Shown here: in pieces, positions 59,859-64,000 of the stretch
Position numbering within the stretch: position 1 is the first letter of the stretch
Layout of the letters: each line of letters opens with the position of its first letter
Assembly: GCF_001997295.1 (NCBI RefSeq)
Contig: NZ_CP019605.1
Location: 372,001-436,000 of the forward strand
Length of the DNA: 64,000 nt
Origin: Tessaracoccus flavus
Lineage (GTDB): Bacteria > Actinomycetota > Actinomycetes > Propionibacteriales > Propionibacteriaceae
Direction of reading: 5' to 3'
Made by a program: the position numbers and the translations under genes
The notes under the pieces: model-generated
The model's database searches: none
What the model was told of the DNA's origin: nothing
What the model saw: only the letters and a program-made list of their open reading frames with translations

Positions 59859-61085
59859 GTGAAAATTCTCCTCCTGGGTTCCGGTGGCCGCGAGCACGCG
59901 ATCGGCCGCGCACTGGCACACGATCCCGCCGTCACCGAACTGCACGTCGCCCCCGGCAATCCAGGCCTCTCATCAATCGCGACGATGCATTCGGCGGATC
60001 CCGCGTCCCCAACAGCGGTGCTGGACCTGGCGCGCTCCCTGCAGGTCGACCTGATCGTCATCGGCCCCGAAGCGCCGCTGGTGGCGGGTGTGGCCGACGC
60101 ACTTCGCGACGCCGGCTTCGATGTCTTCGGACCCGGCCGCGAGGCCGCGGTGCTGGAGGGGTCGAAGGCCTTCGCGAAGGAGGTCATGCGGTCTGCCGGC
60201 GTGCCGACGGCCGACGCGCGGGTGTGTGAAACCCCCGACGAGGTCTCGGCGGCGTTGGACGAGTTCGGGCCTCCGTACGTGGTCAAGAACGACGGCCTCG
60301 CCGCGGGCAAGGGAGTCGTGGTGACGACGGATCGGCAGGAGGCGCTGGACCACGCCGCGTCGTGTGGCCGCGTCGTGATCGAGGACTTCCTCGACGGCCC
60401 CGAGGTTTCGCTGTTCGCCATCTGCGACGGAGAGCGCGCGCTCCCTCTGCTGCCTGCGCAGGACTACAAGCGGGTCGGAGATGACGACGAGGGCCCCAAC
60501 ACCGGGGGTATGGGAGCGTACTGCCCACTGTCGTGGGCCGACGCGGGTCTGACCGACCAGATCATGTCCGAGGTCGTCAATCCCACGCTGGCCGAGATGC
60601 GCCGCCGCGGGACCCCGTTCATCGGGCTGCTGTACGCGGGGCTGGCGCTCACCTCGAGGGGGCTCCGCGTCGTCGAGTTCAACGTCCGCTTCGGGGACCC
60701 CGAAACCCAGGCCGTCTTGTCGCTGTTGAAGACACCCCTGGCAGGCGTCCTCCGGGCGGCCGCGCGCGGCGAACTGGACAGCGTGCCGGAACTTGACTGG
60801 CACGACGGTGCGGCCGTCGTCGTCGTCTCGGCCGCCGAAGGCTACCCCGGAACCCCGGCGACCGGACGTCCCATCACGCTCCCCGACGACGAAACTGACG
60901 CGTACGTGCTGCACGCCGGCACGCGGATCGAGGGCGGCCGTCTGGTGTCGTCGGGCGGGAGGGTGCTGGGCATCGTCGGCCGAGGCGCCGACCTCGACGA
61001 GGCCCGCCGCCTGGCTTACGCACTCCTGGAGAGAATCGACTTCGCCGGCGGCTTCAGCCGCACCGACATTGGCGTGCCCCACTGA
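59859..61085 (+). CDS. purD: Phosphoribosylamine-glycine ligase
   Basis: A 408-residue ATP-grasp enzyme, second step of purine synthesis. GSGGREHAI opens the N domain; VVKNDGLAAGKGVVV is the ATP-grasp loop; NTGGMGAYCP and FNVRFGDPETQ complete the site. Ends 55 bp before the IS element boundary. Confidence 0.96.
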   Translation: MKILLLGSGGREHAIGRALAHDPAVTELHVAPGNPGLSSIATMHSADPASPTAVLDLARSLQVDLIVIGPEAPLVAGVADALRDAGFDVFGPGREAAVLEGSKAFAKEVMRSAGVPTADARVCETPDEVSAALDEFGPPYVVKNDGLAAGKGVVVTTDRQEALDHAASCGRVVIEDFLDGPEVSLFAICDGERALPLLPAQDYKRVGDDDEGPNTGGMGAYCPLSWADAGLTDQIMSEVVNPTLAEMRRRGTPFIGLLYAGLALTSRGLRVVEFNVRFGDPETQAVLSLLKTPLAGVLRAAARGELDSVPELDWHDGAAVVVVSAAEGYPGTPATGRPITLPDDETDAYVLHAGTRIEGGRLVSSGGRVLGIVGRGADLDEARRLAYALLERIDFAGGFSRTDIGVPH

Positions 61086-61149
61086 GGACGTATCGACCGT
61101 TTCCCTGAGTAGTTCGCGAGGGACGAGCGAACGAAGGTCTTATGGTCTG

Positions 61150-62241
61150 TCAAGTGGTGTGGGGGAGGTTGTTGAGGTCTGTTTGGAGGGCGGTCCAGAG
61201 GTCTCGGGTGACGTGTCGTTTGAGTGCTCGGATGGCTTCGGAGCGGGTCTTTCCTTCGGATACTCGGCGTTGGATGTAGGTCTTGGATCGCGGGTCGGTT
61301 CCGAGGCGTCCGATGACGACGCGGTGGATGACGCTGTTGGCTTGCCGGTCGCCCGAGCGCGACAATCTCCACCGGCTGGACTTTCCGGATTGAACGGGCA
61401 GTGGTGCCACGCCGACAAGTTTGGCGAACGCGTCACCGGAGGTGATCCGGCCGGGGTGACCGGCGGTGATCAACAACTGGGCAGTGGTCACTGGCCCGAC
61501 ATGATGCTGGGCCAGCAGGGTCGGCGCGATCGGGGTGAGGATCCTGAGCAGTTGCGCATCGATCTCGACGATGGCCCGATCATGGTCGAGGCAGGCACGG
61601 GCGAGGTCCCTGAGGGCGAGTTTGTAACTGTTGACAGGGTCGTGGAGACGAGTCAGGTCGGGACGCCACGCGGCGATCCGGGCCAGTTTCTGGGCCGAGT
61701 TCAACCCCCGCACCTGGTCAGCGAGGTCGTCGGGACAGGTCACCAGCATCCCGCCTACACGGCCCCAGGCCCGCTGCCTGGAGCTCCGGTGATGGGCCCG
61801 CAGCACCATCAACGGTCGTAGCGCGGCGATCGCGGGATGATAGTGCTTGGCTAGGCCCTTCTGGGTGCCGGCCGCCGCCGCGGTCGCCGCCCGGTACGCG
61901 TCGAGCTCATCGGTCTTCCCGTGCCGGGCCCGGTCACCTCGTTCGGTGTGGTTGATCTCGATCACCTCGATCCCGGCAGCATGCAACACGGCGCTCAACC
62001 CGGCACCATAGGTGCCGGTCTGTTCCACCCCGGCCCGCGAGACCCTGCCATGACCCACAGCCCAGTCCAGCAACTCAAGATAGCCGGCCGGGGTGGCCGG
62101 GAACTGCTGGTCAGCCACCGGAGCACCGGTCGCCGCATCCACCAACGCCGCGTGATGGATGTCCAGATGGGTATCGATACCCACCACCACCGATCCTGAT
62201 GGGGGGTTGCGGTGACGGCGCGTGTGTGATGTCTTGTACAT
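61150..62241 (-). CDS. IS110-family transposase (DEDD)
   Basis: A 363-residue recombinase. N-terminal RuvC-like DEDD domain: D23 in VVGIDTHLD, E73 in GVEQTGTYG, D111 and D114 in KTDELDAYRAA. C-terminal Transposase_20 domain with LVGVAPLPVQSGKSSRWR, where S285 is the candidate catalytic serine. The frame is open to 62340 but GGGAGG five bases before the ATG at 62241 fixes the start. Full-length and apparently intact. It recombines DNA guided by its bridge RNA. Confidence 0.92.
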   Translation of the reverse strand: MYKTSHTRRHRNPPSGSVVVGIDTHLDIHHAALVDAATGAPVADQQFPATPAGYLELLDWAVGHGRVSRAGVEQTGTYGAGLSAVLHAAGIEVIEINHTERGDRARHGKTDELDAYRAATAAAAGTQKGLAKHYHPAIAALRPLMVLRAHHRSSRQRAWGRVGGMLVTCPDDLADQVRGLNSAQKLARIAAWRPDLTRLHDPVNSYKLALRDLARACLDHDRAIVEIDAQLLRILTPIAPTLLAQHHVGPVTTAQLLITAGHPGRITSGDAFAKLVGVAPLPVQSGKSSRWRLSRSGDRQANSVIHRVVIGRLGTDPRSKTYIQRRVSEGKTRSEAIRALKRHVTRDLWTALQTDLNNLPHTT

Positions 62242-62289
62242 GTTGCCTCCCTCAAGGCTTGTCACTATCAGCCGGGAGGGATGGCTCAG

Positions 62290-62540
62290 CAGGCCGGGGA
62301 CCGGAGCACTACAGAGATGAGCCCCACACACGCGGGGCACGGTCTTATCAAGCTACCGCCCCGGCCTGACCCATCCCCCAACCCGCACGCGGGGTCAGAC
62401 ACCGGCCCGGATCTCCCAGGGATCAACGAGGCAGGGCACATCGCAGCAACGCCCTCCAGGGCAGTATCGAAGACAGCCACCACCACAAGACCACCGGAAA
62501 GCCCGGCACCCTCATCCTCGCTGATCCCCGGGAAACCCGG
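62290..62540 (-). ncRNA. Candidate bridge RNA of the IS110 element
   Basis: Transcribed with the transposase, between the IS end and its start. Two hairpin-capped loops are seen. Loop near 62472-62451: CTTCGATAC (62472-62464) equals the target flank at 62566-62558; the cap is GCCCT/AGGGC. Loop near 62348-62310: ATAAGACC (62348-62341) equals the right junction at 61143-61136, and TCTCTGTA (62317-62310) is complementary to the left junction (62560-62553); the cap is GCCCC/GGGGC. A right-target guide was not found. The ends of the RNA are estimates. Confidence 0.6.
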
Positions 62541-62675
62541 TACCCCCAATCCTCTCTGTATCGAAGGGCATCCCGCGGCGTCGCGCTGACCTGGGTGAGC
62601 GGTCATGTCGCGAGCCCTTCGATTCGCGGCCGCTCGTACCTCGCGGCCGCTACTCAGGGAAACGGCAAGCGCGGG

Positions 62676-64000
62676 TCAGGCGATGATCGGGGGCACGGCC
62701 TCGGTCGGGTGCTTCTGCCAGCTCTCGGGGACTCCCAGGCCTTCGGCGAGTTCCTTGGCGCGCGGCCGAAGTTCGCCGCAGAGGGCGTCTACCGTCGCAG
62801 TGATCGCCTTGGACTTCTTCGGGTCGAAGGCCTCGTGCTCCAGGTACCAGGCGCGGTTCTGCTCGATCGTCCACAGCGCGTACAGGTCGCACACCTTGAC
62901 GAGGATCGCCTTGATGTAGTCGTCGGCGGTCTCCTCGATGCCCTCGATGAAGGCCTCCAGGACGATCCGGTCGACGTGGGCCTTGGCCGCCTCGATCATG
63001 TGCATCTGGCACGCGTTGATGGCCGCGTCGCGCTGGTCCTCGGGCTGCTTCGACGCCGCGCGCATCCGGGCGGCGAGGCTCTCGACGATGTGCGACTCCC
63101 GGAACTCGAACATCTGGACGTGCCAGCCGCGGGCGCGGAGCCGTTCGGACTCCGGCTTGCGGTTGGCGACGGCGACGAGGCGGTCGATGGCCGACCGGGC
63201 CGTGGTGCGCTCCATGAACGCACCGCCGATGAGCTTCGCTGTCTTCGACGCCGTCCCGCGCAGATCCATGTCGCCCCAGGTCGACTTGTACTCCAGAAGG
63301 AGCGCCTTGGCGACCAACTGCAGCAGCACCGTGTTGTCGCCCTCGAACGTGGCGAAGATGTCGGCGTCCTGGCGCGTCATCGTGATGCCGTTGTCGGACA
63401 TGTAGCCCGCGCCGCCGCACGCCTCCCTCGCCTCTTGGATCGCATCGAGTGCCCACCTGGTCAGGAGGGCCTTCATCCCGGCCGCGCGGGTCTCCAGTTC
63501 GCGGGACGCGGGGCTGCCCGGATCCTCCTGATCGAGCACGCGTTGCAGCTGCTGGGCGAGTTCGTTCTGCGCGAACCCATACGCGTAGGCCCGAGCGACG
63601 TGCGGCAGGAGGCGACGCTGATGGCTGAGGTAGTCGAACAGCGGGATCTCCTCGCCGAGGCCGGCGCGGCGGAATTGCCGACGGTTGAGTCCGTGATGGA
63701 CGGCGATAGCCAGGGCCTTGCGGGCACCTGACGCAGCGCCGCCGCCGACGCAGATGCGTCCGCGCACGAGCGTGCCCAGCATGGTGAAGAAGCGGGCGTT
63801 CTTGGACTCGATGGGGGAGTGGTAGGCGCCGTCCTCGCCGACGCCGCCATAGCGGTCGAGCAGCATCGACCGGGGGACCCGAACGTGCTCAAACGAGATC
63901 GTGCCGTTGTCGACGCCGAGCAGGCCTCCCTTGTGGCCGTGATCGCCGATCGTGACGCCCGGCATGGGGTTGCCGTCCTCGTCACGAATGGGGACCAGGG
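62676..64000 (-). CDS. Acyl-CoA oxidase/dehydrogenase family protein (5' partial)
   Basis: The last 441 residues; the gene continues past the window edge in the same frame. FAD and substrate segments of the acyl-CoA oxidase group are present (GVDNGTISFEHVRVPRSMLL; REACGGAGYMSDNGI; ATFEGDNTVLLQLVAKALL, where Glu of FEGDN is the likely catalytic base), followed by the long acyl-CoA oxidase C-terminal domain. Probably oxidises fatty acyl-CoA with O2. The REP-like palindrome with the IS lies after its stop. Confidence 0.85.
   Translation of the reverse strand, partial: LVPIRDEDGNPMPGVTIGDHGHKGGLLGVDNGTISFEHVRVPRSMLLDRYGGVGEDGAYHSPIESKNARFFTMLGTLVRGRICVGGGAASGARKALAIAVHHGLNRRQFRRAGLGEEIPLFDYLSHQRRLLPHVARAYAYGFAQNELAQQLQRVLDQEDPGSPASRELETRAAGMKALLTRWALDAIQEAREACGGAGYMSDNGITMTRQDADIFATFEGDNTVLLQLVAKALLLEYKSTWGDMDLRGTASKTAKLIGGAFMERTTARSAIDRLVAVANRKPESERLRARGWHVQMFEFRESHIVESLAARMRAASKQPEDQRDAAINACQMHMIEAAKAHVDRIVLEAFIEGIEETADDYIKAILVKVCDLYALWTIEQNRAWYLEHEAFDPKKSKAITATVDALCGELRPRAKELAEGLGVPESWQKHPTEAVPPIIA

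Follow-up and report, generated by a model that had tools for sequence, protein, structure and literature searches.

A predicted bridge RNA in the non-coding left end of a seven-copy IS110-group insertion sequence

What is encoded by the long non-coding end of the insertion sequence lying on the minus strand of the window (the whole stretch of 64,000 nucleotides analysed here)? Bridge RNAs have been known as a kind since 2024, and a preliminary description had proposed one at this locus, from short matches between the non-coding end, the ends of the element and its target. With a probability of roughly 0.93, the upstream non-coding end encodes the bridge RNA of a new IS110-group element, whose expression and activity are predicted from the DNA. 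Seven copies in one genome make this system unusually easy to read.

The element (61133..62557, minus strand) spans 1,425 bp, including one core C, and its ends were taken from empty repeats. It encodes a transposase/recombinase of 363 amino acids (61150..62241, minus strand), with a DEDD RuvC-like domain (PF01548, 1.1e-19) and a Transposase_20 domain (PF02371, 3.2e-14), which is also matched by the NCBIfam equivalog NF033542, 'IS110 family RNA-guided transposase' (3.7e-45). Residues D23, E73, D111, D114, and S285 are invariant across a 16-protein alignment, and the catalytic residues align with those of IS621 (PDB 8wt6, E 1.6e-22), for which their roles are described in the accessible text of PMC11208158. 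The DEDD RuvC-like domain and a C-terminal domain with a conserved serine place the protein in the IS110 family, while the long left end upstream of the gene (316 nt) and the short right end (16 nt between the stop codon and the core C) place the element in the IS110 group rather than the IS1111 group. A gene on each side converges on the element: the product of one has glycinamide ribonucleotide synthetase domains, that of the other acyl-CoA oxidase domains.

The nearest proteins found, besides itself, show 56% and 53% identity and lie on contigs no longer than 4,058 and 1,514 bases, and no relative above 56% was found among the 7,993 scored candidates sharing most words. A single-protein scan of genome contigs found no relative. 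Protein matches at E 1e-40 or better occur in 25 of the 145 searched relatives, its own genome apart, and in the alignment-based scan the best 80 of 569 matching stretches, from Actinomycetota, Proteobacteria, and others, were kept. The same genome also holds two copies of a second IS110 element of about 38% protein identity (101321-104637 and 2907129-2910445), inserted in a different repeat (CAGGGAC-C); its left target guide matches its own target, and at a handshake position its RNA has G where the target has C.

The boundaries of the element can be read from its copies. The other six are 97-99% identical to the window copy over the aligned stretch, and the insertion point, CTTCGATA^C, lies inside a dispersed palindromic repeat in all seven. 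The left junction reads (C/T)CTTCGATAC-AGAGAGG and the right junction ATAAGACCTTC-G in 7/7 copies. Comparison of these junctions with empty sites shows a single C common to the left junction, the right junction, and the empty site; it lies at 62558 on the left (minus strand, target CTTCGATA-C) and at 61133 on the right (minus strand), which is the true right boundary. The TT before the right-hand C is part of the element, and the right junction first proposed was off by about 3 nt. A CT core of the IS621 type at both junctions was considered and rejected, as the window element reads CA on the left and CG on the right.

Within the non-coding end, the letters quoted in the preliminary description are found on the minus strand exactly where it had put them: ATAAGACC at 62348-62341 and 61143-61136, TCTCTGTA at 62317-62310, CTTCGATAC at 62472-62464 and 62566-62558, as well as both hairpins. 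Three of the predicted guides (all features in this paragraph being on the minus strand) are confirmed. The left target guide CTTCGATAC (62464..62472) equals the left target plus the core, a relation also seen in relatives; the left donor guide ATAAGACC (62341..62348) equals the right end, with relatives in the same register; and the right donor guide TCTCTG (62312..62317) is the complement of CAGAGA. The target-binding loop is capped by a GCCCT/AGGGC hairpin (62451..62462), read directly, and the donor-binding loop by a GCCCC/GGGGC hairpin (62321..62338), read directly and by folding. The overrun of the donor matches into the target flank, as first described, is true of TCTCTGTA, which crosses the core by two bases (TA), and not of ATAAGACC, as the right boundary at C61133 places that match wholly within the element. 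The bases by which the right donor guide overruns form a handshake dinucleotide, as described for IS621: TA (62310..62311), complementary to the final TA of the target.

The right target guide had been considered not evident, the complement of AGAC being expected in its place. Those letters belong to the donor end and not to the target, and the guide itself was found through the homologous columns of relatives, which covary with the right target in 36 of them: it is GCTGCG (62442..62447, minus strand), followed by the target-loop handshake guide AT (62440..62441, minus strand). GCTGCG pairs, with one G.U, with the target C-GCGGC, which is the right target in three of the seven copies (L003, L005, L006). 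The right flank of the window copy, C-GTTCGC, pairs at its first bases only, so that the earlier suggestion of a diverged target holds for the right half of the window copy and for nothing else. A T/A polymorphism at 62445, within this guide (A in 3/7 copies), was considered as tracking the right target of each copy; this was rejected, as it fits L007 only.

Both donor-loop handshake bases of the window element are matched, and one of two in the target loop, where A pairs with a donor T and T is left unpaired with the next donor T. This mismatch (donor TT, guide AT) raises the alternative that the bridge RNA is present in an element that now moves poorly or not at all, and both groups of relatives with a TTC donor (AC1 and Sv4) carry AA rather than AT. 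Such a loss of mobility is nevertheless unlikely. The mismatch is identical in 7/7 copies that are 97-99% identical over the aligned stretch and thus did not stop the spread, and the wild-type IS621 RNA also has one handshake base without a canonical pair, according to the accessible text of PMC11208158.

The target repeat also bears on site choice. The window copy interrupts one repeat, whose left part (62559..62664, minus strand) was delimited by repeat matches in the genome, and whose right part (61095..61132, minus strand) was delimited by comparing copies with empty repeats. Apart from the seven element copies, 74 matches were listed in the genome, most of them short and falling in that left part, and an unoccupied sister repeat, folded as DNA, gives a long palindromic hairpin (z -2.8). 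Exact instances of the 10-mer CCTTCGATAC number 49 genome-wide, against none for the reversed 10-mer used as a control. After CCTTCGATA, unoccupied repeats mostly read C, then G or A; at the 42 (of 43) unoccupied exact sites counted, the base after the core C is G at 25, A at 15, C at one, and T at one. By the right target guide, the core should be followed by G and next by C, as is the case at 6/7 occupied and 13/42 unoccupied sites (Fisher one-sided p 0.010), with G alone at 7/7 versus 25/42 (p 0.039); the sole occupied site failing the GC test is that of the window's own copy. Agreement with the right target guide is thus better at occupied than at unoccupied repeats, and since the test was devised after the flanks were seen, this constitutes support and not proof. 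Seven occupied and 42 unoccupied sites in one genome amount to a natural experiment, in which the role of each guide in site choice can be read without any assay.

The same repeats could suggest another way of spreading for the seven copies, namely homologous recombination or duplication of an element-bearing repeat in place of RNA-guided insertion. The repeats are indeed homologous to each other, and over a left arm of about 100 nt L003 and L007 are nearly identical. This explanation is very improbable, since the flanks outside the repeat differ by eye, right flanks vary among the copies, the left arm is present in 5/7 copies (L004 and L006 being without it in the match), and the junction falls at one identical base in all seven.

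A CTCGATAC site is also the target of a distant element with a 44%-identical protein, present in one genome as L096, L098, L100, L102, and L104. At four of these five copies the site is followed by GCTCGT(T/A)CCTC-type repeat sequence, much like the target here; the two elements are diverged, yet one type of repeat is common to both.

The guide matches were compared with chance and traced in relatives. Dinucleotide shuffling of the 304-nt non-coding end, repeated 20,000 times, gave the 9-nt left-target match in four shuffles, the 8-nt right-end match in 94, and the 8-nt left-junction complement in 663, which alone is not rare; the three matches never occurred jointly (0/20,000). The non-coding end is GC-rich and folds strongly (z -5.4), and 60900-62900 matched no Rfam family at E up to 5. 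Left ends were gathered in 96 groups (95 relatives and the window element), with both ends recognised in 81. A common right-end pattern, TTGAC...CATAGGAGCNTC, is found in relatives, and in the donor-binding half of the RNA, TGACYTCATAGGAGCCTG...CATCACTGTCTTGTCC is widely conserved among them. A covariance model was built from 53 of 58 eligible sequences, five weak or odd ones being omitted by choice and the window element excluded. It finds the donor-binding half within the left end, at 62265..62381 (minus strand), with 39.7 bits and E 1.1e-5, as the only significant match in the window (the next having E 0.5 and 1.3). The consensus fold of the aligned relatives is weak, with 10 pairs at -3.5 kcal/mol and the outer stem unaligned, and compensatory changes are seen in six of these 10 pairs. 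A tRNA target in Arthrobacter-type relatives was also considered and dropped, as ARAGORN found none in five of them.

Guide covariation was examined in relatives of at most 56% protein identity to the window element. Of the 80 with both ends, 36 could be anchored for the test of the right target guide, and 71 survived the cut made for that of the left donor guide. The anchor for the right target guide lies in the RNA and is independent of the DNA; anchors were chosen after the pairing had been seen by eye. This anchor mis-places the window element, which was therefore excluded from the 36-relative test and had its guide assigned by homology. In these 36 relatives, complementarity between the RNA and the right junction peaks along one antidiagonal (z 7.8, 6.3, 3.5, 3.4, and 3.3). 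Target position +1 has z 7.8 (89% observed versus 34% expected), +2 has z 6.3, and +3 to +5 have z 3.3-3.5, while donor position 6 has z 5.9 (83% versus 42%). In the 71 relatives, the left donor guide is identical to the right end at eight columns (z 4.7-8.5, 86-97% match); past these, the match falls to 4%, an invariant T then agrees, and the core follows at 0%.

The left target likewise recurs in the RNA: 15 of 17 element groups show it at full length (8-9 nt), G113 over 7 nt, and G019a over only 4 nt. The total of 144 was reached in none of 20,000 permutations (best 99), although the left junctions of own2, Sv4, G110, G019b, G094, arthA, and arthC, whose targets are homologous to each other, were placed with the motif in view. 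A stricter repeat was made on nine other groups, with junctions placed without looking at the RNA: eight recur through the core C, G019a does not, and the total of 67 was again reached in 0/20,000 permutations, though the best was 65. Permutations ignore relatedness, and arthA/arthC and G058/G019a are close kin. Sister elements provide a case of natural retargeting, as L176 and L185 (CTTGAAAAC) differ from L189 (CTTGCAAAC) by an A-to-C change in both flank and guide. Separately, four copies in one same-genus genome (L125-L128) have the left target GACATAC and GACAAAT in the RNA, the clearest case among the 17 groups of a left target guide not spelling its target.

Relatives thus display what characterises a bridge RNA or seekRNA, a pair of loops whose guides covary with the target and with the donor, in the layout proposed at the outset: target loop first, donor loop second, and in each a left guide before the cap and a right guide after it. 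Were the left end no more than a regulatory region or structured 5' leader of the transposase mRNA, matching the junctions by chance, its GC-richness, its strong folding, and the single 8-nt matches arising in shuffles would fit. This alternative is scarcely credible, given that the three matches never arise jointly, that relatives with other targets hold their own target at the same place in the RNA, and that the columns of the guides covary with DNA lying beyond the element.

The bases adjoining the right guides were compared with both partner DNAs in the 17 groups. The target-loop dinucleotide matches the donor at 32/34 positions, 17 of them forced because the anchor requires the first base (A), and the target at 5/34; the donor-loop dinucleotide matches the target at 29/34 and the donor at 7/34. 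The placements of G058 and G019a appear mistaken and were kept unaltered in the counts. The free test is handshake position 6, which agrees in 15/17 groups for the target loop and 13/17 for the donor loop (permutation p 5e-5). A occupies target position 7 in 16/17 groups, and the sole C7 group (own2) has G in its guide. Published handshake covariation was reported at position 7; the relatives add position 6. They also point to a core of one base: in 14/17 groups C alone is shared, position 9 not being the same at the two junctions. Because right ends had to finish in TC, the donor T and core C are given by construction in the covariation, handshake, and core counts; without this requirement, 61/85 relatives still end in NTC, the rest having another register or failing.

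These observations allow the suggestion, to which we would give somewhat less than an even chance, that the clade recombines through one shared base, with an A-C target and a T-C donor, and that its RNA is written for the product and not for the substrate. Two features can tentatively be taken as signs of such a product-written RNA: the neighbours of the right guides match the post-exchange partner DNA, and the left donor guide avoids the donor bases adjoining the core. If true, this code would bias the reaction toward insertion.

A plausible cycle of the element can be outlined from these features. Excision would join both ends and assemble a candidate promoter transcribing the left end. Its -35-like TTGACA (61148..61153, minus strand) overlaps the TGA stop codon, which lies inside TTGAC in 74 of 92 relative groups; its -10-like GAGGAT (62549..62554, minus strand) has three of the six letters of TATAAT and would lie 18 bp from TTGACA once the ends are joined. 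In L109-L113, the right-end length differs by one base (TTGACATCC or TTGACCATCC), which alters the spacing of the circle promoter. The left-end RNA would then bind the DEDD/serine recombinase. Its first loop would pair with the palindromic repeat, CTTCGATAC with the bottom strand and GCTGCG with the top strand, and its second with the joined ends of the element, through the left guide ATAAGACC and the right guide TCTCTG. After top-strand exchange, the dinucleotides adjoining each right guide would pair with the partner DNA in a handshake, and the recombinase would insert the circle at CTTCGATA^C.

Known systems offer close parallels. As far as the accessible text of PMC11208160 and PMC11208158 goes, IS621 resembles the window element in protein architecture, aligned catalytic residues, four-guide order, handshake guides, and insertion into a palindromic repeat; once strands are exchanged, the bases adjoining its right guides likewise pair with those of the partner DNA (PMC11208158). 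It differs by its CT core, where only C is common in most groups here, and by a left donor guide pairing through the first core base, where the guide here ends before the core. Neither a one-base core nor a short left donor guide is stated in the accessible text, figures apart, of PMC11208160, PMC11208158, and PMC11187229; the actinobacterial ISAar29 (Extended Data Fig. 10 of PMC11208160) may show both already.

ISEc21, of the IS110 group, is described in the accessible text of PMC11187229 with a non-coding end upstream of the gene, no target duplication, and a bottom-strand match 5' of the top-strand match, all as in the window element, and with a joined-end promoter, for which the window element has a candidate. 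In contrast, it targets an IS3-family transposase gene, with other guides, and not a palindromic repeat. Relatives of about 40% identity (e.g., L148) have right flanks resembling this IS3-transposase target (PMC11187229), which may indicate a link; a script rebuilding empty IS3-type sites gave no clear result. Finally, although they have other hosts and other repeats, and although the accessible account of them (PMC1525189) predates the RNA, ISPpu9, ISPpu10, ISPa11, and other REP-inserted elements likewise have all their copies in repetitive palindromic sequence.
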